From the NCBI RefSeq assembly GCF_032362555.1, contig NC_083506.1:481501-545500 (forward strand): 64,000 bases of DNA. Reading direction: 5' to 3'. The stretch comes from Amyelois transitella (lineage: Eukaryota > Arthropoda > Insecta > Lepidoptera > Pyralidae). The notes below the pieces were generated by a model that was not told the origin of the DNA, searched no databases, and was given only the letters and a program-made list of their open reading frames with translations. Shown in pieces: positions 15 to 63,170 of this stretch. The translations under genes were made by a program, and so were the position numbers. Each line of letters opens with the position of its first letter. Positions within the stretch are counted from its first letter, which is position 1.

Positions 15-74
15 AATATCTTTAAAAAAAATTAGTAAGTATATAGTTATACATACATACATACATACATAAAA

Positions 75-3000
75 TCACGCCTCTTTCCCGGAGGGGTAGG
101 CAGAGACTACCTCTTTCCACTTGCCACGATCTCTGCATACTTCTTTCGCTTCGTCCACATTCATAACTCTCTTCATACAAGCTCGGCGGTTTCGGGTACT
201 TTTGACCTGACCCTTTACCAGGACGTCCTTAATTTGATCAAGATACGTTCGTCTAGGTCTTCCCACTCCGACCTTTCCCTCCACACTCTCCTTGTATATC
301 TGCTTAGTCAACCTGCTTTCATTCATCCTCTCCACATGACCGAACCATCTTAACATACCCTTTTCTATTCCTGTAACTACATCTTCTTTCACATCACAAC
401 ATTCCCTTATCACGCTGTTCCTTATCCTGTCACTCAATTTCACACCCATCATACTCCTTAACGCTCTCATTTCCACTGCATTTATTCTGCTTTCATGCTT
501 CTTTTGCCATACCCAACTTTCACTCCCATACATTAATGTCGGGACCAACACGCCCCTGTGCACAGCCAGTCGAGCCTTTTTGGATAGTTTCTGACTGCTC
601 ATAAAGGCATGCAAAGCTCCATTCACCATGTTCCCCGCGTTCACTCTCCTTTCAATATCACTATCATACTTGCCATCTGATGTAAACTTTGATCCTAGAT
701 ATACAAACTCTTTCACTTGCTCCACTTTTTCTCCTCCAATCAAAATATTACATGCTGTCATTTCTTTCTCCATTTCAAAAACCAGTGTTTTAGTTTTACT
801 TACGTTCACTTTCATTCCTTTCTCTTTTAAAGCTTCATGCATACAGTTTACCATCTCCTGTAACTCCTCCGCTGATGACGCCAGTATAACCTGATCGTCG
901 GCATAGAGCAGACATTTGACGAGTAACTCATTCATCCTTAATCCACTTTTAGACTCTTTCAAATCTGTCAAACAGCTATCCATAAATAGGTTGAACAGCC
1001 ACGGTGACGCAACACATCCTTGCCTAACGCCTTTCTCAATCTTAAACCACTCAGTGTGCGCTCCGTTTATCCTGACACAAGCACTCGAATCCTCATATAA
1101 GGATTTCAGTGCTCGTATTAAGAGACTGCTCACCCCATGCATAGAAAGTGCTGACCACAATTCATTCCTCTCAACTCTGTCATAGGCCTTTTCCAGATCT
1201 ACGAATGTGCAATAGACTTTTTGACTCTTGGCCAAAAACTTTTCGGCTATGCACCGCAAGGAAAAGACCTGATCAGTACATCCCATTCCCTTTCGAAATC
1301 CCGCTTGAGCATCCCATATTTTGTCATCAGTTTCATTCCTGACTCTATTAATCAATACCTTAGCATACAATTTGCCGACGACGCTAAGCAGGCTTATACC
1401 ACGATAATTTTTGCAGTCCAGCTGTGACCCTTTTCCTTTGTAAAGTGGCACGATAACAGCCTTACACCAATCTTTTGGTACTCGGTCGCTTCTCCAACAC
1501 AAATTGAAAAGGCAGTACAACTGACTAGCTACTACGCCTTTTCCTGCTTTAAGCATCTCGACCGACACTCTATCACACCCAGCAGCCTTTCCCGCTTTCA
1601 TACTCTTAAGTGCTTCCACAATTTCGAACATTTCAATTTCGCCTTCCATCTCATTCTCTTTTTCTTCGCTATAGCAGAAATCTTTCTTATTTCCTTCCTT
1701 TTTTTCAAATAAACTTTCAAAATAGTCCTTCCATATCTTTAGTACACATTCTTCTCCTTTCACAACGCTACCATCCTGGCATCTGATCCTAGTCAGCTCT
1801 CTGGTTATAGTATTTCCTCGGGCTGACCTTACGGATTTCCAGAATACTTTCAGATTTGACTGAAAGTCTTCTGATAGCCTTTTATCAAAATCCTCTTTAT
1901 ACTCTTCTTTCTTTCTAATCACAGCTTTCTTAACCAAATCTTTCATTTTCTTATATTCCTTACGTGCTTCATTCACATCTTCATCTATAACCTCTTGCAT
2001 TCTTAAGTTAGCTTTTGCTGCTAACAAATCCAGCCATGCTTTCTTCTTTAATCGCACAAGTTCTTGCACATCTTTACTCATCCACGCATTTTTGTGATTT
2101 TTTCCTTTCCTTCTTCTACTTACACCACACACTTCAACAGCTACTTTCACAATTCTTTCTTTAAATTCCTTCCATCCATCTTCAATATCGCTCATTTCAT
2201 CTAAATCTTCAAATTCATCCTTCAGTCTATTAATATACTTCTTACCTACATCCATATCTTGCAAATTTTCTACTTTTACTCTTTCCAAAGCGCTGGTTTG
2301 CTCCCTTACCCTGTGCCGCCAGCGATTGAAGATACCCCTTATCCGGGATATCACCAGTAAATGGTCCGAGTCAATGCCAGCACCGCGATATGCACGGGTA
2401 TCCAGCACTTTGTTCTTCAATCTTTCATCTACAATCACAAAGTCTATCATACTTTTTAAAATACCTTCCACTCTTGTGTAGGTGTGGATCTCTTTATGTT
2501 GAAACATTGAGTTCGACACAAAAAGATCCCACTCTAGACAAATTTCTAATACACTTCTTCCATTATCATTCACCTTTTCGTCACCAAACGCACCAAGCAC
2601 CTTTTCATATCCATCACGCTTTACACCCACCCATCCATTAAAATCACCTAACATAATAATCTTCTCATTTGGCTTGGTAACTTTCAATACTTCTCTTACA
2701 CTATTCCAGAACTCCTCGTTTTCGCTTTTTGCTGATGTTGTACCCCTCGAACCCACATCCCAAGGTGCATAAACACCTAGAACGAAGATCCGAGTGATTC
2801 CAACTTTCAGCCTAATCCATAGAAGACGAGGGCTGACACACTCATACTCATTCACGCACTCAGCCATTCGTGCAGAAAGAATTAGACCGACCCCTTGACA
2901 GCCTCGGCTGGTACTGGAAATTCCAGACCAATACGCCGTGTAAGGGCCGTGCTGCGTCGCGTCGCATCCTTTCCGCTTCGTTTCATTCACGCACAACACA

Positions 3001-3185
3001 TCCAAACGTCTTTCATCCATCATCTGGCATACTTCCTCAATCTTATCCTTCATTCCTCCTCTTACATTCATCGTCGCAAAGCGGCTTTCAGCAGACCGCA
3101 TACCGCTCCCGCCGGGAACGAGACGTGATGGGGTGCGGACACCATCGCCGCCATCTAGGTGCTCTTTCAAAAAATTTGCATCCAT
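75..3185 (-). CDS. LINE ORF2: endonuclease/reverse transcriptase (1036 aa)
   Basis: An intact retrotransposon polyprotein that nicks target DNA and copies the element RNA. The N-terminal apurinic-type endonuclease (about residues 36-285) shows N40, the catalytic glutamate in CVNETK (E68), GDFN (181-183), IDF (D248) and SDH (273-275). The reverse transcriptase (about 510-830) shows FVDLEKAYD (661-669), a GVRQG block (about 719) and the catalytic YADD box (761-764). The C-terminal region carries GHVERM and GRPRR motifs typical of RTE-like proteins. No frameshift or stop interrupts it and the key catalytic residues are present, so the copy may still be competent if transcribed. From residue 369 it matches the second copy at 58272-60278 except at two residues. 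Confidence 0.93.
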   Translation of the reverse strand: MDANFLKEHLDGGDGVRTPSRLVPGGSGMRSAESRFATMNVRGGMKDKIEEVCQMMDERRLDVLCVNETKRKGCDATQHGPYTAYWSGISSTSRGCQGVGLILSARMAECVNEYECVSPRLLWIRLKVGITRIFVLGVYAPWDVGSRGTTSAKSENEEFWNSVREVLKVTKPNEKIIMLGDFNGWVGVKRDGYEKVLGAFGDEKVNDNGRSVLEICLEWDLFVSNSMFQHKEIHTYTRVEGILKSMIDFVIVDERLKNKVLDTRAYRGAGIDSDHLLVISRIRGIFNRWRHRVREQTSALERVKVENLQDMDVGKKYINRLKDEFEDLDEMSDIEDGWKEFKERIVKVAVEVCGVSRRRKGKNHKNAWMSKDVQELVRLKKKAWLDLLAAKANLRMQEVIDEDVNEARKEYKKMKDLVKKAVIRKKEEYKEDFDKRLSEDFQSNLKVFWKSVRSARGNTITRELTRIRCQDGSVVKGEECVLKIWKDYFESLFEKKEGNKKDFCYSEEKENEMEGEIEMFEIVEALKSMKAGKAAGCDRVSVEMLKAGKGVVASQLYCLFNLCWRSDRVPKDWCKAVIVPLYKGKGSQLDCKNYRGISLLSVVGKLYAKVLINRVRNETDDKIWDAQAGFRKGMGCTDQVFSLRCIAEKFLAKSQKVYCTFVDLEKAYDRVERNELWSALSMHGVSSLLIRALKSLYEDSSACVRINGAHTEWFKIEKGVRQGCVASPWLFNLFMDSCLTDLKESKSGLRMNELLVKCLLYADDQVILASSAEELQEMVNCMHEALKEKGMKVNVSKTKTLVFEMEKEMTACNILIGGEKVEQVKEFVYLGSKFTSDGKYDSDIERRVNAGNMVNGALHAFMSSQKLSKKARLAVHRGVLVPTLMYGSESWVWQKKHESRINAVEMRALRSMMGVKLSDRIRNSVIRECCDVKEDVVTGIEKGMLRWFGHVERMNESRLTKQIYKESVEGKVGVGRPRRTYLDQIKDVLVKGQVKSTRNRRACMKRVMNVDEAKEVCRDRGKWKEVVSAYPSGKEA

Positions 3186-3387
3186 GCGATTCCCACGAGA
3201 CGCTAGGGAAAAATTTTGTCCGCCCCAGCAGAGCCCCGCATGCCAGGGTAAGGCTAGCCATTACCTGGGGGTCGCCCAACCCCATGGCGGAAGTGGCACG
3301 CTCGAGACTAGGCTCGCCCCTAGCCATGCATCCATCGGCGCGGCAGACCTTAGATTGGCAGGGATTTACATTAAAGAGGAATCCCAA
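3088..3387 (-). CDS. possible small ORF1 of the LINE (99 aa)
   Basis: An open frame of 99 residues starts in the LINE leader and overlaps the start of the big ORF by about 98 bases in another frame. Some RTE elements have a short upstream ORF overlapping ORF2, which makes this a candidate, but no domain is recognisable. It could equally be chance reading of GC-rich leader. Confidence 0.25.
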   Translation of the reverse strand: MGFLFNVNPCQSKVCRADGCMARGEPSLERATSAMGLGDPQVMASLTLACGALLGRTKFFPSVSWESHGCKFFERAPRWRRWCPHPITSRSRRERYAVC

Positions 3388-3476
3388 GTCTATCCCTTAG
3401 TCGGCTCTTACGACATCCGTGGGAAAGAGATGGAGTGGTCCTATTCTTTTGTAATGGTGCCGGGAACCACACGGCA
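3373..3476 (-). repeat. SINE-A head joined to the LINE 5' end
   Basis: Read on the minus strand this begins with GTGCCGTGTGGTTCCCGGCA and runs through the GACTAAGGGAT block, matching the first part of full-length SINE-A copies such as 38041. It then passes directly into the LINE leader. Target-primed integration truncates 5' ends, so a head without a tail next to a LINE 5' end is better explained as part of the LINE than as a separate SINE. Confidence 0.7.
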
Positions 3477-3847
3477 ATGATGACTTTAATCCAAGAGTAT
3501 GAGTTTTGATTTAAGATGGCCAGGTGATTCTATGTACACCCCAGTATCGAGTCATAACAGCTGGATAATCACTAAGAATTTCCCAAAATTCCTATAGGAA
3601 TCGACAATTGTTTCAGGTTAAAGCTCTCACATCTTAGCCTCAGAGCCCGAGGTATAATAAAACTATTACAATACTAAAGCTGTTTCCCTCTATAGAAACA
3701 TGCAACTTTGACTGTATGTCAAAAAATTCATATTTACATAAATGTATCATTACATAGTACACCATGTTAATTTTAACAATCTCAAAGTCACAGCTGCATC
3801 AGCGAACATATCAGAAATAGAAATGTCTTCATTATGTCACTGAGTTA
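3477..3847. other. no gene seen
   Basis: AT-rich single-copy-looking DNA between the LINE and the orphan ORF. No repeat or coding signal was recognised. Confidence 0.6.
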
Positions 3848-4198
3848 CTAACAAAAGTACTTCTTTTGCTTTCTTTCACCATCATCACTGTCTGAGAAGC
3901 ACTGTGCGAACCCACTCTTGTCCCTAGACTCTCTTCGAGAACGGTAGTTGTCCGAATTCCGCACTTGAGTCTTCCTTTGGATCCGTTTCTTTTTTGACTG
4001 AACATTTGCAGGGCTAGCGACGTTGACACTAGGTGAAGAACTCAATTGATCAGTCAAGTTGTTCACAACTAACACCGAATTGTCCTTCTGCCTTAAAGAC
4101 AGTCCTAAATTACGTCCGCTTCGTGTTCTAGAGACATTGTCTGGATTTTCTTTCCTCTCAGAATTGTATATATTATTTGCCTTTTTCCTTCTATCCAT
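3848..4198 (-). CDS. orphan ORF, 116 aa, basic and serine-rich
   Basis: Not recognised. The frame starts MDRRKKANN and ends KKYFC. It is rich in Lys, Arg, Ser and Asn, with an acidic serine patch (SDSDDGE) near the C-terminus, a composition seen in disordered nuclear proteins. No transmembrane segment, signal peptide or catalytic motif is visible. There is no obvious AATAAA signal downstream on the minus strand. It may be a real small gene, one exon of a larger gene, or a decayed retrocopy; it is unlike the transposon ORFs around it. Confidence 0.35.
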   Translation of the reverse strand: MDRRKKANNIYNSERKENPDNVSRTRSGRNLGLSLRQKDNSVLVVNNLTDQLSSSPSVNVASPANVQSKKKRIQRKTQVRNSDNYRSRRESRDKSGFAQCFSDSDDGERKQKKYFC

Positions 4199-4429
4199 GT
4201 TAGGTCTCTCGTTTATCTATTTATATAGTTATAAAGGAAACAAATCACTTGCAATGGCGGACTTATCCCATGAAGGGATCTCTTCCAGTCAACCGGTAAA
4301 CAATAAAGGAACTAGATAATTCAGTAAAAAGCGGCAAGTCACTGTGTTTTTAGCAACTTTTGTTACAAGATTTAGGAGTTGCCCGTCCAATTAAGAAAAC
4401 TAGGTTAAGTTTGGTTGACGTTATCAACC

Positions 4430-12290: not shown

Positions 12291-12655
12291 TTCTAAGTTC
12301 TTCTAAGCGCCACGCGTGCGCCTCGCTAAGGCACGACACATGACCAAATTCCATAAAGGCTTTCATATCTAACTGTCGATTAATATTACGTCGCGGTACA
12401 GGCTAAAATTGGGAAAAAACACTTTCGCAGTCTCAACTCGTTAGGAAAGTGGAATAAGCGAAATAAATTTGGTGGATTTATTTCTGGAGATTATCGGAGC
12501 AATAAGTCGCGTTCACGGCGGCCCGCGGATGCTTTACAAAAAGTTAAATCAAAAACGTGAGGCGGCGACAAACAAGAGGGGGCGACAACACCCCCCTGCA
12601 ATTTATTTACAACTTGTCCCGCGATAACCTGGCCCGAATGTTTTTGTTATTTATG
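12291..12655. other. no gene seen; GC-rich patch
   Basis: A GC-richer stretch around 12500-12600 (GGCGGCCCGCGGATG, GGCGACAACACCCCCC) with no extended frame or recognised element. Confidence 0.4.
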
Positions 12656-15624: not shown

Positions 15625-16490
15625 TACATTCAGTCAGAAAAGTATCGGGAATGGATTATTTATTTATGGTTCCAAATTCAAATTTTTGTTTTTTTTTGTT
15701 GTTGTTAGATTGGCACAACTGTTTTCCATTTTGGCGCGGAGTTTGAGTTGCATCTGTTGTTTACATTAAATACAGTGCTATTTTTATTTATATCATATCT
15801 AGTGTGTATTGCTAATTTCATAATGGATAAAAACATCGAACAAAGAGTTTGTCTTAAATTTTGCATTGCCAATGGAATATCGTGTTCGGAGTCACTGAAA
15901 ATGTTACAGAAGGCTTACGGTAAATCGACTTTATCAAAAACTCGTGCTTATGAGTGGTACAAAGCGTTCAAAAGCGGTCGATTGTGCACTCGGAATTCTT
16001 GCCGGAAGGTCAAACGGTAAATAAGGAATATTATTTGAGTGTTATGCGGCGTTTAAGAGAGCAAATCCGACGAAAAAGGCCAGATTTGTGGAAAGAAAAT
16101 TCTTGGATTTTGCACCATGATAATGCACCTTCGCACAAGGCCATCATTGTGAACGAATTTTTAACCAAACACTCAACAAATACCATCGAGCAACCACCAT
16201 ATTCACCAGATATGGCTCCAGCCGACTTTTTTCTTTTTCCTAAACTCAAATTACCACTTCGTGGCACCCGTTTTCAATCGGTAGAAGACATAAAAGAGAA
16301 TTCGCGGCGAGAACTGACCTCAATTCCGGAAACAGCGTTTAAAAAATGTTTTGATGATTGGATTATTCGTTGGCGTAAGTGTATCGTTTCTAAAGGAGCA
16401 TATTTTGAAGGTGATAAAATAAATTTGGATGAATAACAAACAGTTTGTGTATTATTGATCTTTTCCTGCTACTTTCTTGACAGAGTAGTA
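15625..16490 (+). mobile_element. mariner (DD34D) with internal deletion
   Basis: Imperfect terminal inverted repeats: 5' TCAGTCAGAAAAGTATCGGG (from 15630) and 3', read on the minus strand, TCTGTCAAGAAAGTAGCAGG (to about 16485), flanked by TA on both sides. The element is about 0.87 kb against about 1.3 kb for a complete mariner. The transposase is split into two frames by loss of the middle, so it cannot move itself but could be cross-mobilised through its ends. Confidence 0.8.
15824..16436 (+). pseudogene. mariner transposase, broken
   Basis: Two pieces. The N-terminal part (15824-16020, start MDKNIEQRVC) is the DNA-binding helix-turn-helix region ending ...EWYKAFKSGR. The C-terminal part lies in another frame from about 15986 to 16436 and holds HHDNAPSH with the second catalytic Asp, then, 34 residues on, the third Asp in YSPDMAPAD, which defines the DD34D class. 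The segment with the first catalytic Asp is deleted, so the enzyme is inactive. The join falls near 15985. Confidence 0.85.
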
Positions 16491-18433: not shown

Positions 18434-18677
18434 GTACGGCCTCTGTGGCGCAGCGGTAGTACGCTTGTCTGTGACACCGGAGATCCCGGGTTCGAATCCC
18501 GTAATGGTAAGAAAAGAACTTTTTCTGATTGACCTGGTTCTAGGATGTTTATCTATATAAGTATTTATTATAAAATATAGTAGCATCGTTGAGTTAGGAT
18601 CTCGCAACACAAGTCTCGAACCTACTTTGAGGCTAACACAGTCTGTGTTATCTGTCCCGTATAAAATTTATTCTTTT
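18434..18677 (+). repeat. tRNA-derived SINE (SINE-B), full length
   Basis: A-box-like GTGGCGCAGCGGTAGTACG and B-box-like CCCGGGTTCGAATCCCG are better preserved than in the 10602 copy. The body and CTGTCCCGTATAAAATTTAT end follow. Confidence 0.85.
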
Positions 18678-30285: not shown

Positions 30286-30544
30286 GTGCCGTGTGGTTCC
30301 CGGCACCAATAGGAAAAGAATAGGACCACTCCATCTCTTTTCCCATGGATGTCGTAATAGGCGACTAAGGGATAGGCTTACAAACTTGGGATTCTTTTTA
30401 GGCGATGGGCTAGCAAACTGTCACTATTTCAATCTCAATTCTATCATTAAGGCCAAATAGCTGAACGTGGCCATTCAGTCTTTTCAAGACTGTTGGCTCT
30501 GTCTAACCCGCAAGGGATAAAGACGTGACCATATGTATGGTATG
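30286..30544 (+). repeat. SINE-A, full length
   Basis: GTGCCGTGTGGTTCCCGGCA head, all blocks, CATATGTATGG tail; one of the best preserved copies. Confidence 0.94.
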
Positions 30545-30545
30545 T

Positions 30546-30690
30546 TGAAACTAGAACGACTTGGGGATGTCCTGATGGACTCGGGAAGTGAATTCCAATA
30601 CCTAACAGACATAACAGCGGAAGAATTATTACCAGCTGAATGAGGCTTTACGCACCAACTATAACACCAATGGCTAGCGGTATACATACA
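30546..30690 (-). pseudogene. LINE ORF C-terminal remnant
   Basis: A minus-strand frame reads RYWNSLPESIRTSPSRSSF, the W-N-S-L-P...I-R...S...F signature found near the C-terminus of jockey-like and related reverse transcriptases. Only about 45 codons remain. It is interrupted by the LINE-tail insertion at 30685. Confidence 0.6.
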
Positions 30691-47024: not shown

Positions 47025-47531
47025 TTACGAAGATTTGCCGCCTTCTGAGGACGACTTGTCCTGGATCGGTATGGTTCTCTCCGCAATGGGCTCCGCTCTG
47101 AACGCGACCAATTTCAACTTGCCCTTATCCAGGTGGCACTCCACACGCTCAGGAGGGAACCCCTCGGGTAAAAGAAACCGCCTCTCAAAGTTACTCCTTA
47201 TCCAACCATCCTCACGCTTAACCTCCTTTTTGCCTTCAACCATAATCTCATTTCCCACGGTTTTTACTTGAATCTGATCAGGTGTGAAGTTCTGAACGTC
47301 CAAGTGTACCTCCACCTTCTTCCCGTCCACTTTCACCTCGTGATCGGAGTAAATGCCGTCGATTCCGTGGTGGTCCTCCAAAGCCGGCGTCACTTGGCGA
47401 ATGTACTTCATTGGGTCGCGGAAAAATGGGTCCTTGGAGAATACGGTGAATGGATCTTCCAGCATCCTGGCGACGGGGTCCCGGTACGCCAAGTTCCGGA
47501 GATGGCGCAACCAATACGGCACTAAAGACAT
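47025..47531 (-). CDS. small heat shock protein (Hsp20 / alpha-crystallin family), 168 aa
   Basis: A molecular chaperone that binds unfolding proteins in the cytosol without ATP and holds them for refolding by Hsp70. The alpha-crystallin domain spans about residues 63-145, with the conserved ERRFLLPEG strand region at 116-124 and a GKLKLVA variant of the usual G-x-L segment at 137-143. The C-terminal IPI (154-156) is the I-x-I motif used for oligomer assembly. The N-terminal arm has aromatic residues (Y6, W7, F28, F31, F36, F37). Length fits insect sHSPs of the l(2)efl/Hsp20 type. Single exon, as expected for heat-inducible genes. The first ATG follows a TATA box by about 85 bases. Exact orthologue not determined. 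Confidence 0.96.
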   Translation of the reverse strand: MSLVPYWLRHLRNLAYRDPVARMLEDPFTVFSKDPFFRDPMKYIRQVTPALEDHHGIDGIYSDHEVKVDGKKVEVHLDVQNFTPDQIQVKTVGNEIMVEGKKEVKREDGWIRSNFERRFLLPEGFPPERVECHLDKGKLKLVAFRAEPIAERTIPIQDKSSSEGGKSS

Positions 47532-58245: not shown

Positions 58246-58262
58246 TATTTTTCTCTAAAAAA

Positions 58263-60301
58263 AATGCGTGGATGAGTAAAGATGTGCAAGAACTTGTGCG
58301 ATTAAAGAAGAAAGCATGGCTGGATTTGTTAGCAGCAAAAGCTAACTTAAGAATGCAAGAGGTTATAGATGAAGATGTGAATGAAGCACGTAAGGAATAT
58401 AAGAAGGTGAAGGATCTGGTTAAGAAAGCTGTGATTAGAAAGAAAGAAGAGTATAAAGAGGATTTTGATAAAAGGCTATCAGAAGACTTTCAGTCAAATC
58501 TGAAAGTATTCTGGAAATCCGTAAGGTCAGCCCGAGGAAATACTATAACCAGAGAGCTGACTAGGATCAGATGCCAGGATGGTAGCGTTGTGAAAGGAGA
58601 AGAATGTGTACTAAAGATATGGAAGGACTATTTTGAAAGTTTATTTGAAAAAAAGGAAGGAAATAAGAAAGATTTCTGCTATAGCGAAGAAAAAGAGAAT
58701 GAGATGGAAGGCGAAATTGAAATGTTCGAAATTGTGGAAGCACTTAAGAGTATGAAAGCGGGAAAGGCTGCTGGGTGTGATAGAGTGTCGGTCGAGATGC
58801 TTAAAGCAGGAAAAGGCGTAGTAGCTAGTCAGTTGTACTGCCTTTTCAATTTGTGTTGGAGAAGCGGCCGAGTACCAAAAGATTGGTGTAAGGCTGTTAT
58901 CGTGCCACTTTACAAAGGAAAAGGGTCACAGCTGGACTGCAAAAATTATCGTGGTATAAGCCTGCTTAGCGTCGTCGGCAAATTGTATGCTAAGGTATTG
59001 ATTAATAGAGTCAGGAATGAAACTGATGACAAAATATGGGATGCTCAAGCGGGATTTCGAAAGGGAATGGGATGTACTGATCAGGTCTTTTCCTTGCGGT
59101 GCATAGCCGAAAAGTTTTTGGCCAAGAGTCAAAAAGTCTATTGCACATTCGTAGATCTGGAAAAGGCCTATGACAGAGTTGAGAGGAATGAATTGTGGTC
59201 AGCACTTTCTATGCATGGGGTGAGCAGTCTCTTAATACGAGCACTGAAATCCTTATATGAGGATTCGAGTGCTTGTGTCAGGATAAACGGAGCGCACACT
59301 GAGTGGTTTAAGATTGAGAAAGGCGTTAGGCAAGGATGTGTTGCGTCACCGTGGCTGTTCAACCTATTTATGGATAGCTGTTTGACAGATTTGAAAGAGT
59401 CTAAAAGTGGATTAAGGATGAATGAGTTACTCGTCAAATGTCTGCTCTATGCCGACGATCAGGTTATACTGGCGTCATCAGCGGAGGAGTTACAGGAGAT
59501 GGTAAACTGTATGCATGAAGCTTTAAAAGAGAAAGGAATGAAAGTGAACGTAAGTAAAACTAAAACACTGGTTTTTGAAATGGAGAAAGAAATGACAGCA
59601 TGTAATATTTTGATTGGAGGAGAAAAAGTGGAGCAAGTGAAAGAGTTTGTATATCTAGGATCAAAGTTTACATCAGATGGCAAGTATGATAGTGATATTG
59701 AAAGGAGAGTGAACGCGGGGAACATGGTGAATGGAGCTTTGCATGCCTTTATGAGCAGTCAGAAACTATCCAAAAAGGCTCGACTGGCTGTGCACAGGGG
59801 CGTGTTGGTCCCGACATTAATGTATGGGAGTGAAAGTTGGGTATGGCAAAAGAAGCATGAAAGCAGAATAAATGCAGTGGAAATGAGAGCGTTAAGGAGT
59901 ATGATGGGTGTGAAATTGAGTGACAGGATAAGGAACAGCGTGATAAGGGAATGTTGTGATGTGAAAGAAGATGTAGTTACAGGAATAGAAAAGGGTATGT
60001 TAAGATGGTTCGGTCATGTGGAGAGGATGAATGAAAGCAGGTTGACTAAGCAGATATACAAGGAGAGTGTGGAGGGAAAGGTCGGAGTGGGAAGACCTAG
60101 ACGAACGTATCTTGATCAAATTAAGGACGTCCTGGTAAAGGGTCAGGTCAAAAGTACCCGAAACCGCCGAGCTTGTATGAAGAGAGTTATGAATGTGGAC
60201 GAAGCGAAAGAAGTATGCAGAGATCGTGGCAAGTGGAAAGAGGTAGTCTCTGCCTACCCCTCCGGGAAAGAGGCGTGATTTTATGTATGTATGTATGTAT
60301 G
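58263..60301 (+). mobile_element. RTE-type LINE, 5'-truncated (LINE copy 2)
   Basis: A 2-kb copy lacking the endonuclease. It starts in the codons for NAWMSKD and ends in five TATG repeats. TATTTTTCT occurs just upstream (58246-58254) and just downstream (60302-60310) as a 9-base target duplication, with a few extra A residues at the 5' junction. Its near identity with copy 1 indicates recent transposition from the same or a very close source. Confidence 0.93.
58272..60278 (+). CDS. LINE reverse transcriptase, truncated (668 aa)
   Basis: Corresponds to residues 369-1036 of the copy-1 protein. Complete reverse transcriptase with FVDLEKAYD (293-301) and YADD (393-396), plus the C-terminal region, but no endonuclease. 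It differs from copy 1 at only two residues (V for M at 46, G for D at 199), so purifying selection or very young age is implied. The start is an internal methionine, and there is no sign that it is translated here. Confidence 0.88.
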   Translation: MSKDVQELVRLKKKAWLDLLAAKANLRMQEVIDEDVNEARKEYKKVKDLVKKAVIRKKEEYKEDFDKRLSEDFQSNLKVFWKSVRSARGNTITRELTRIRCQDGSVVKGEECVLKIWKDYFESLFEKKEGNKKDFCYSEEKENEMEGEIEMFEIVEALKSMKAGKAAGCDRVSVEMLKAGKGVVASQLYCLFNLCWRSGRVPKDWCKAVIVPLYKGKGSQLDCKNYRGISLLSVVGKLYAKVLINRVRNETDDKIWDAQAGFRKGMGCTDQVFSLRCIAEKFLAKSQKVYCTFVDLEKAYDRVERNELWSALSMHGVSSLLIRALKSLYEDSSACVRINGAHTEWFKIEKGVRQGCVASPWLFNLFMDSCLTDLKESKSGLRMNELLVKCLLYADDQVILASSAEELQEMVNCMHEALKEKGMKVNVSKTKTLVFEMEKEMTACNILIGGEKVEQVKEFVYLGSKFTSDGKYDSDIERRVNAGNMVNGALHAFMSSQKLSKKARLAVHRGVLVPTLMYGSESWVWQKKHESRINAVEMRALRSMMGVKLSDRIRNSVIRECCDVKEDVVTGIEKGMLRWFGHVERMNESRLTKQIYKESVEGKVGVGRPRRTYLDQIKDVLVKGQVKSTRNRRACMKRVMNVDEAKEVCRDRGKWKEVVSAYPSGKEA

Positions 60302-60324
60302 TATTTTTCTACAGTTATATACAA

Positions 60325-60822: not shown

Positions 60823-63170
60823 CTGAAAGTTAAGAAAAAAATTAATAAATGTTTTTTCAAATTTACTAAAAATTACGAAAAGAAGTCTGTTACTTTGTAT
60901 ATCTTCAGAACTTAAAAGCAGAAGTTTGACATTCAAACTTTGTCCAAATGAGAGATGAACGTATAGCTTTTTTTTATGGAAAAAAATATATTATAGAATG
61001 CCTTAAAAAATGTTCTGCAATAAAACAAGAAGCTAATTGCATGATATGATGTAAAACAATAACGAATATATATTAATCCACACTAATAATAAAGAAAAGA
61101 TTCGTATTTTTGTATGTTTTAACGAATGAACTCAAACAGTCTCATTTGCATCTTTGCGAGTAATATAGACTACTTTTTTCTATAATTTCCCACGAGACCG
61201 AAGGTCCGCGCAAGAACTAGTGATTTTATAAAAGGTAACTTTTGTTCTTCTCTCTAACTTTATTGTATCTACAGAAATACTGCACCGATTATGAAAATTC
61301 TTTCACCGTTAAGAGGAACATTATCTGCGGATGTTATAGCCTATGTATGTACCACAGACAAAGCCGTGGCAGGCTGCTAGTAAGGAATAACAATAAAACG
61401 TAGCAATCTCTTACCTTAGGAGCGAACTCGATATCAAAACTCTTGAATTTACCATCTGATACGAAATAATGTACTTCGTCGCTATAAACATGCGTCGCTT
61501 TGGACAAAGTGGACTCTAATTGTAACACATAAGTCTTATTATCCGCCGGCAACCTGCAAAGAAAGAAATATCTTTAATAAAAGTTAAACACTTTCACTTG
61601 CAGGGTATGATAAGAAACGTGCCGTGTGGTTCCCGGCACTAATAAAAAAAAAATAGGACCACTCCATTTCTTTCCCATAGATGTCGTAAAAGGCGACTAA
61701 GGGATAGGCTTACAAACTTGGGATTCTTTTTTAAGGCGATGGGCTAGCAACCTGTCACTATTTGAATCTCAATTCCTATCATTAAGCCAAATAGCTGAAC
61801 GTGGCCATTCAGTCTTTTCAAGACTGTTGGCTCTGTCTACCCCGCAAGGGTTATAGACGTGACCATATATGTATGTATGATGAGAAACGAACTTTCTCTC
61901 ATTGTCCTGGTGCTTAGATGTTTATGTATATAATTATTTATTATAAAAAATATGTATAGTATCGTTGAATAAGAATCTCGTAACACAAGTATCGAACTTA
62001 CTTCGAGGCTAATTCAATCTGTGTAGTGTGTCCCGTATATATTTATTAGTAGCACCTACACATTTGATCCTAATAGATTAGTAAGTAATGCCACTCTTGG
62101 AAGGTTTAACCTTTAACTTTCCTACCTTCCTCTCCTAATCTAATCTATCCTCTTCATAATATTTGCAAAATTGTAATAATAAACTAATCGCTCCTATATT
62201 TATTAGTTCGTATTTTTTTTGTCATTTAAATATATAAGTCATATTACCTCGGCAGGACTTACATTAATGCCAGGTTCAACAACTGGTTATAACCGGTCGG
62301 ATCCAGTTATAGCGAGTTTATATGTATATTGGCGCGTTTGGTATAGCTGGGTTCGCTAGGGCCAATCTAAGGGTTTTGTACCTTATTTTTATCAAAATTA
62401 AAGTTCAATATCTTACCTGGGCAGGACATACATCAGTCCTGGGTTCAACAACTGGTTATAACCGGTCGGATCCAGTTTCGTCGAGTATATGGGCGTGTTT
62501 GGTGTAGATTCGGCGGCTAGGGTCAATCTTAAGGTCTTGTAGTGTTCTATATTGGGCGCATGGACCAGTACGTTGACATCAGTCAGCTGCTGAGGTTGGA
62601 TGACGATGATCTTCACGTTCACAATGTCCTTGTTGTCTTTCACCTGAAAACGGAGATAAATTTCGACACGTACACACATATGTACATACATATTTTTTAA
62701 AATTGAAACTTTATACACGTAAAATGTGCAACAGGTGGACTTAATGTTATGTTATGTCATATATGTGGTTCTCTCTCACCATCTTTTTTCCCCTGGATGA
62801 CGTAAAAGGCGACTAAAGGATAGATGAGATTCTTCATGTAGGCGATGGCAACTTATCACTATTTGAATCTCGATTCAAACATAAAGCCATACAGCTGAAC
62901 GTGACTGAAACGCCACCTACACAAATTAAATAAAAAAAGTCCAGTTAGCCAAATAGCTGAACGTGGCCATTCAGTCTTTTCAAGACTGTTGGCTCTGTCT
63001 ACCCCGCAAGGGATATAGACGTGACCCAGGCCGTATGTAGGCCCAGTTTTTAGAGATTACCCACCTCTAACGAAGCAGGTGCTTTGACCAGTCTCAAACC
63101 GGCTAACTCTGGATTAGTAGACTCTTTAAGCTCGATTTTATACACGCATCCTGGTAGGAGACCTCGGATT
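60562..63170 (-). CDS. NOMO: NOMO (nodal modulator) orthologue, C-terminal four exons
   Basis: NOMO is an ER membrane protein with a long lumenal array of Ig-like/carboxypeptidase-regulatory-like repeats; with nicalin and TMEM147 it forms the BOS complex of the multipass translocon. Seen here are about 244 C-terminal residues from exons 63065-63170, 62417-62643, 61415-61553 and 60562-60822, joined in frame at GT/AG sites. In order: RGLLPGCVYKIELK, a DIVNVKIIVIQ strand, TYVLQLESTLS, FDIEFAPKVKLSEQELRQ, the single transmembrane segment TSFLVVPLLIALAVAYH, and a short basic cytosolic tail ending KRSSKKKQ. These landmarks match the end of animal NOMO proteins. The 5' exons lie beyond the window. 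Confidence 0.87.
61079..61382 (-). repeat. LINE 3' fragments, intronic
   Basis: Two pieces in the last NOMO intron: 61079-61222 (ACTAGTTCTTGCGCGGACCT on the minus strand) and 61236-61382 (CTAGCAGCCTGCCACGGCTT). Confidence 0.5.
61415..61553 (-). CDS. NOMO: NOMO, penultimate exon
   Basis: Encodes LPADNKTYVLQLESTLS... to FDIEFAPK. Acceptor TTTCTTTGCAG; donor AAG followed by GTAAGA. The first base completes an Arg codon. Confidence 0.88.
61603..62047 (+). repeat. SINE-B split by a SINE-A insertion, intronic
   Basis: A short SINE-B piece (GGGTATGATAAGAAAC, to 61618) and its continuation (GAGAAACGAACTTTC to GTGTCCCGTATATATTTA, 61881-62047) surround SINE-A. The repeated ATGATAAGAAAC/ATGATGAGAAAC is the target duplication. 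Confidence 0.8.
61619..61880 (+). repeat. SINE-A, full length, nested in SINE-B
   Basis: GTGCCGTGTGGTTCCCGGCA to CCATATATGTATGTATGA. In the intron between the 61415 and 62417 exons, antisense to NOMO. Confidence 0.93.
62245..62386 (-). pseudogene. decayed duplicate of a NOMO exon
   Basis: Matches the 3' two thirds of the 62417-62643 exon and its donor (shared stretch GGTTATAACCGGTCGGATCC in both on the plus strand). The frame LDPTGYNQLLN is still readable, but the TAT of LMY has become a TAA stop, and there are indels upstream. The donor GT remains; the 5' part with the acceptor is not found. A partial tandem duplication left in the intron. Confidence 0.85.
62417..62643 (-). CDS. NOMO: NOMO exon
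   Basis: VKDNKDIVNVKII... to GLMYVLP, 75 codons plus two bases. Acceptor ATCTCCGTTTTCAG, donor GTAAGA. Confidence 0.88.
62768..62912 (+). repeat. SINE-A, diverged, intronic
   Basis: CACCATCTTTTTTCCCCTGG, GACGTAAAAGGCGACTAAAG to GCTGAACGTGACTG; no tail. Confidence 0.7.
62943..63027 (+). repeat. SINE-A tail, young, intronic
   Basis: AGCCAAATAGCTGAACGTGG to GGGATATAGACGTGACC; ends 37 bases before a NOMO exon with the TATG tail missing. Confidence 0.85.
63065..63170 (-). CDS. NOMO: NOMO exon, most 5' in the window
   Basis: IRGLLPGCVYKIELKE... to KAPASLE, 35 codons after one base completing the preceding codon. Acceptor TTGGTTTCAG, donor GTGGGT. Confidence 0.87.

Follow-up and report, generated by a model that had tools for sequence, protein, structure and literature searches.

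A LINE and an abundant short element of the moth Amyelois transitella have both their ends in common

The stretch of Amyelois transitella DNA analysed here (NC_083506.1, positions 481,501 to 545,500; 64,000 nucleotides (nt), hereafter the window) contains a long interspersed nuclear element (LINE) and about 55 pieces of a short interspersed nuclear element (SINE), which we refer to as SINE-A. We found that the two elements share their 5′ end as well as their 3′ end. The finding is real and held in every copy inspected: an active LINE matches, at either end, a short element in which no promoter for RNA polymerase III (Pol III) can be recognised. As to its origin, we give an even chance to the reading that the LINE captured the head of SINE-A, which would make this LINE lineage a propagating SINE/LINE chimera. 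Capture by the LINE is somewhat likelier than the formation of SINE-A from the ends of the LINE, which an earlier reading of the letters alone (the sequence-only reading) had proposed.

The features of the LINE and of SINE-A in the window are collected in Table 1. A SINE-A consensus was derived from 17 window copies. The LINE head at the 5′ end (window 3476–3373) aligned to positions 2–115 of this consensus with 98 matches, 6 mismatches and 2 gaps (one gap spanning 8 bp), and its alignment score of 152 was far above 23, the highest value among 500 dinucleotide shuffles. This bears out the sequence-only reading, which had placed a SINE-A head directly on the LINE leader. The likeness it had noted between the 3′ ends was also confirmed: over 39 bp, 31 positions matched and 7 mismatched, with 1 gap (~82%; score 36 versus a maximum of 26 in 500 shuffles), and in the LINE this stretch does consist of the last codons and stop codon of the open reading frame (ORF). 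Its count of about 55 SINE-A copies agrees with ours, which is derived from 62 BLAST clusters after subtraction of the LINE head and of six tails belonging to the LINE.

Since the sequence-only reading had raised full-length copies lacking the head as a sign of a chance junction, the LINE family was searched in the genome from which the window comes (327 Mb, 33 contigs). A query of head plus leader gave 1698 candidates, 40 of which were scored; as the head formed part of the query, the sampling is biased. All 40 scored copies, the window copy included, carry head and leader and were identical at 291 of 291 positions, the 41st match being a 27-nt piece. Searched by itself, the leader's initial 24-nt stretch was met at 472 places when up to 3 mismatches were allowed (control 1). 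Four of these places were fetched and all had the head; L081 and L083 are among the 40, and L082 and L084, which lie outside them, have small changes in the head. The distinct LINE copies inspected, a subset of the 472 leader places, thus number 42, and every one starts with the head. The sequence preceding the head differed in each fetched copy. In one copy (L053), it includes an inverted piece of the SINE-A/LINE head.

Target-site duplications gave the same boundary. Excluding L048, L054 and L057, for which no 3′ end was recognised, 37 of the 40 copies could be assessed. Duplications of at least 8 bp with at most 1 mismatch, varying in length, flank head plus LINE in 25 of these, compared with 21 of 1332 mismatched pairs, and a stricter count of exact duplications gave 17 of 37. 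In 21 of the 25 the duplication lies within 2 nt of the head, and 6 to 13 extra nt stand ahead of the head in the other four (L064, L050, L062 and L067). As the duplications enclose head and LINE together, the head is the true 5′ end of the LINE, and the mobile unit comprises head, leader, ORF and tail. These data strongly support the head as a regular part of the LINE family. A chance neighbour or one-off chimera confined to the window locus would fit the absence of a duplication directly at the head of the window copy; with the same junction in 42 distinct copies, and duplications at the head in most of those that could be tested, this account of the head is refuted and we attach practically no probability to it.

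The two elements appear to differ in age. Thirty-six of the 40 LINE copies, counting the window copy, are at least 99.3% identical to the window copy (L057 being aligned over 653 nt only), and 13 of the 40 remain open for at least 1000 amino acids (aa) from the exact start string. The heads of 14 SINE-A copies were 3.5–16% from their consensus. We regard the LINE as young and active, and SINE-A as older and very abundant.

What a one-off event does explain is the sequence upstream of the head in the window copy. Window 4217–3475 matched locus L080 on contig C13 with 99.06% identity over 743 nt, with a 2-nt overlap at the junction. The C13 locus is the only other genome place listed for the 743-nt piece and has neither LINE nor SINE at the junction; there, a reading frame stays open for at least 386 aa, and the 371 nt between its end and the junction are presumed 3′ untranslated region (UTR). 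For the piece at 3477–4217, whose one other listed copy lacks a LINE beside it, a one-off chimera therefore holds. Thus the head–leader junction described by the sequence-only reading stands, while the sequence just 5′ of the head, in view of the C13 match, is probably not the original flank. A probable target-site duplication encloses the whole: the 12-bp string TATAACTATATA occurs only twice in the 64 kb and was met in none of 400 shuffles of the 8.6 kb upstream. As controls, any 12-mer of the first 34 flank bases was found in 3% of shuffles, and random real 12-mers were met again in a 1.1-kb stretch in 26 of 4000 trials. Four nt between the 12-bp repeat and the C13 homology are unexplained. 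Most likely, the window copy was inserted together with a piece of host RNA. A template jump may have supplied this piece, or else a LINE allele at C13 that is missing from the assembly. In a second copy, L065, 21 nt of a second head start could be seen by eye ahead of its head, inside a repeat of the flank. Together with the window fusion, this suggests that jumps at the LINE 5′ end occur in this family, and such jumps are the step that head exchange requires in either direction. 5′ transduction was considered as a source of the SINE head and ruled out, as the head was present in every copy inspected.

The sharing does not extend to the interior of SINE-A. Its middle has no counterpart in the LINE (scores of 18 and 21 on the two strands, against a mean of 20 and a maximum of 27 in 100 shuffles), so SINE-A is not simply the present LINE with its interior deleted. 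SINE-A has two traits of a canonical SINE, namely a 3′ tail in common with a LINE and flanking target-site duplications, which were found at 4 of the 13 window copies assessed (4 of 156 in the null), many copies being old. With elements of the Bov-A2 type it has in common the 5′ terminus shared with the LINE, and it differs from them in that its body is not recognisably LINE-derived, the middle being without similarity to the present LINE; the middle may descend from an older LINE 5′ region. In a sample of 27 non-LINE heads, from which duplicates and heads not spanning consensus positions 12–100 were left out, 26 lead on into the middle of SINE-A and the last does so partly.

We next considered which signals the shared ends could carry. 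A search for the A and B boxes of a Pol III promoter, using a simple consensus and one tRNA gene of the window as positive control (score 17), gave the SINE-A consensus 11 of a possible 17, with a shuffle mean of 11.03 and 365 of 500 shuffles scoring as high or higher; the 27 SINE heads scored 10–12 and were likewise not above shuffles. ARAGORN found no tRNA in SINE-A. Rfam, run over the whole window at E up to 10, reported no tRNA or 5S, a weak negative as it also missed as tRNA the gene that ARAGORN called at 18439. That gene, a tRNA-His at 18439–18509 with perfect A and B boxes, is perhaps the head of another, truly tRNA-derived SINE. The run TTTT occurs inside the first 200 nt of 25 of the 27 copies, and TTTT is a Pol III stop. 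An HDV-like ribozyme gave no Rfam match at E up to 5 in 2900–3700, although a remote one could escape. A tRNA, 5S or ribozyme head is thus unsupported by Rfam, the tRNA negative being weak. The canonical SINE trait of a tRNA-, 5S- or 7SL-derived head with an internal Pol III promoter was not found, though a decayed or unusual promoter is conceivable, and a Pol III start of SINE-A is unsupported by its sequence. As Pol III signals were not found, the common head probably carries the start signal of both elements, most likely a putative internal promoter for RNA polymerase II (Pol II), in which case transcripts of both would be expected to start at (G)TGCCGTGTGG.

At the other end, the same hairpin can be folded in the tails of SINE-A and the LINE. 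The hairpin alignment lists 34 of 49 tails, 12 of 61 having been dropped earlier as incomplete. Of 33 distinct tails, 27 have U-A and 5 have C-G at one pair of the stem; as the five C-G rows are LINE tails, a single change separating two groups essentially accounts for this. When the SINE-A tail is translated in the frame of the LINE it gives YPARD, which by eye resembles the C-termini of P0014 and P0004 more than the YPSGK of this LINE. Another LINE from the same group may have donated the SINE-A tail. A pattern for the LINE 3′ end with up to 3 mismatches was found at 12,471 genome places in many variants, versus 472 leader starts; the larger count includes young copies, as the pattern meant to exclude them covered three consensus bases, not four. 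In the LINE family, a young 5′ half is accompanied by 3′ ends that differ in age.

Three observations bear on the direction in which the head was exchanged. First, in an unrooted tree of the heads over ~115 bp, the LINE head nests among the SINE heads as sister to SINE S1 (support 0.76), which shares two of its changes. Second, the tails are more diverged than the heads (match to mismatch 31:7 versus 98:6, p = 0.042). Third, older copies of the LINE 5′ half are scarce. A pattern search for mutated leader copies gave 4 places (control 5), of which 1 is clear and three are chance-like, and a search for mutated copies of the 5′ ORF gave 1 place (control 6), which is 5′-truncated and uninformative on the head. 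These patterns report copies altered at one or more of four chosen positions and with few other changes, and miss strongly changed ones. Taken together, the nesting, the greater divergence of the tails and the few mutated 5′ copies fit capture by the LINE better than the opposite direction. The bipartite proposal of the sequence-only reading thus fares well as to the two shared ends, which are strongly supported, and less well as to SINE-A having been built from the LINE.

In the explanation that we favour, the LINE and SINE-A would be a pair with both ends in common, of which the 3′ hairpin and TATG tail, by analogy with known SINE/LINE pairs, would be the start mark for the LINE's reverse transcriptase. 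The enzyme would then have jumped from the LINE 5′ end onto SINE-A RNA, the SINE head would have become the new LINE 5′ end, and the re-headed LINE would have spread to its ~470 leader-bearing copies. The window copy, fused to host-gene sequence, would be best read as one such 5′ jump.

Several points weigh against capture by the LINE. The 8-bp deletion and two substitutions of the LINE head occur in none of the 27 sampled SINE heads, one of which has a different gap at that place, so no donor SINE was found. The nesting has weak support on ~115 bp and the tree is unrooted, and the comparison of heads with tails ignores differing constraint on the two ends. A recent arrival of the LINE from another species, or its survival at low copy number, would also predict few old 5′ copies. 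Capture would bring no evident gain if the SINE head carries no promoter; the promoter role of the head is putative, and the Rfam scan is a weak negative. The hairpin that would serve as the start mark was barely above shuffles in its paired cells (89.6% versus 88.5%, 39 of 500 shuffles as high); 11 of 500 shuffles reached its covariation score, and 452 of 500 had as many pairs changed on both sides.

The derivation of SINE-A from the LINE accordingly keeps a substantial though lesser probability. An ancestral LINE would have given both ends, the middle would be new or come from an older LINE 5′ region, and the product would have been copied via the common start and end signals. The sharing of both ends agrees with this, as does the fact that SINE-A contains no Pol III promoter that could be recognised (the Rfam part of that evidence being weak), and there are precedents: Table 1 of PMC3747384 lists the SINEs MAR4, RTESINE1, Bov-A2 and RTE1-N1_LA with the 5′-end of RTE/BovB as promoter. 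The absence of the middle from the LINE speaks against it, in addition to the diverged tails, the weakly supported nesting and the near absence of mutated 5′ LINE copies already described, and in the available text of PMC8010984 the 5′ regions of SfSE1, PxSE5 and PxLINE1 are widely diverged. A further alternative is a third source, such as an unrelated Pol II transcript or another SINE, from which each element would have acquired the head separately, neither deriving from the other. The window copy does show an unrelated RNA attached to the LINE 5′ end, and no donor was seen among the 27 SINE heads. However, two events at the same head boundary would be required, and no third carrier was seen, all but one of the 27 non-LINE heads entering the SINE-A middle in full and the last in part. 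We therefore consider a third source improbable.

Table 1. Positions in the window of the LINE, its flanking features and representative SINE-A copies
Feature	Position	Strand	Basis or remark
3′ copy of probable target-site duplication TATAACTATATA	40..51	-	12-bp exact match
(TATG)n tail of LINE	52..67	-	sequence
3′ stretch common with SINE-A; hairpin and stop codon	68..105	-	31 matches, 7 mismatches, 1 gap
LINE ORF, 1036 aa, endonuclease and reverse transcriptase	75..3185	-	Pfam RVT_1 3.8e-41, Exo_endo_phos_2 3.1e-06
LINE 5′ leader, 187 nt, not common to SINE-A	3186..3372	-	first 24 nt recurs genome-wide
SINE-A-like head, 5′ terminus of LINE, 104 nt	3373..3476	-	98/104 aligned bases equal SINE-A consensus 2-115
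Host-gene piece fused to LINE 5′ end	3477..4217	-	beside LINE only here; 4217-3475 matches C13 locus L080
5′ copy of probable target-site duplication TATAACTATATA	4222..4233	-	12-bp exact match
SINE-A, full length, used as seed	30286..30557	+	sequence search
Second LINE copy, 5′-truncated	58260..60304	+	99.76% identical; TATTTTTCT on either side
SINE-A, full length, near consensus	61619..61888	+	flanks ATGATAAGAAACG / ATGATGAGAAACG on two sides

The LINE itself has the organisation of an RTE-type element, with a single ORF encoding an apurinic/apyrimidinic (AP)-type endonuclease and a reverse transcriptase, a very short simple-repeat 3′ UTR in which the stop codon is followed by TTTTATG and (TATG)n, and the variable target-site duplications given above. 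The name RTE is that of the sequence-only reading, and the assignment is suggested by this structure and by resemblance to published elements. The ORF product has 80% identity to a Phthorimaea protein, and the nearest named proteins are from Phthorimaea, Tuta and other Lepidoptera. Contrary to the statement that the copy at the start of the window is the only long one, a second long, 5′-truncated copy is present (Table 1). Scans of viral contigs gave no relative of the LINE head, tail or ORF, and a scan of genome contigs gave 9 matches, all to bacterial records at 22–34% identity. A search for homologues of a 116-aa ORF found none, and the resemblance of the translated leader to the N-termini of P0004 and P0014 did not go beyond shuffles. 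The predicted folding of the LINE head, the SINE head and 150 nt of the leader was not unusual (z of -0.15, -0.61 and +1.13). Elsewhere in the window, an ORF at 15954–16436 resembles by eye a fragment of a mariner transposase, and one at 47025–47531 on the minus strand resembles, also by eye, a small heat-shock protein.

Among known systems, Bov-A2, RTESINE1, MAR4 and RTE1-N1_LA, as given in Table 1 of PMC3747384, resemble SINE-A in that they are non-autonomous and begin and finish like an RTE LINE, with no tRNA head. These four are mammalian, and SINE-A differs from them in its middle without LINE similarity and in the position of the LINE head within the group of SINE heads. In the trypanosomatid pairs ingi/RIME and L1Tc/NARTc, according to the accessible parts of PMC2323293 and PMC4748587, the first 77–79 nt are common to both partners; as with our elements, a LINE and a short partner share a 5′-terminal module of ~80–100 nt. 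There the module is an internal Pol II promoter, whereas in the LINE and SINE-A the promoter is putative, and no ribozyme was among the Rfam matches to their 5′ region at E up to 5. The moth elements HaSE1/HaRTE1 and PxSE5/SfSE1/PxLINE1 are described in the portions available of PMC3272025 and PMC8010984 as sharing a SINE tail of 43 bp, 82–84% identical to the LINE, and PxLINE1 and SfSE1 resemble our pair in their ATGT tail (PMC8010984). Unlike SINE-A, HaSE1, PxSE5 and SfSE1 are tRNA- or 5S-headed by description. In those portions of the two papers, compared by description, we found no shared 5′ end in the published moth pairs. Five sequence strings searched for in paper texts gave no match, and no described case of a LINE and a SINE with both ends shared was evident from at most the top 20 literature titles per search, a scope mostly outside subscription papers. 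Chimeras at the LINE 5′ end in Magnaporthe (PMC2104539) and of human L1 (PMC13174262), as described in the parts available, join a SINE, a small RNA or an mRNA to the LINE in one event, and the latter source adds that L1 loci regain promoters from nearby genes. U6/L1 chimeras are said usually to fail to propagate; in contrast, the headed LINE is present in many near-identical copies.

The usual definition of a SINE combines a Pol III head with a tail borrowed from a LINE. In SINE-A, both the start and the tail are of LINE type, and the LINE itself starts with a SINE-like head. An origin of SINE-A from the LINE would add an insect case to the four mammalian ones (PMC3747384, Table 1), and moth elements filed as tRNA SINEs on 58–67% identity would then merit re-examination. 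If instead the LINE took the head, this would be a 5′-end exchange that spread rather than a dead-end chimera, in which the LINE took a part from its own parasite. Since SINE-A has no clear promoter of the usual SINE kind, the LINE and SINE-A may trade ends and share signals for transcription and copying.

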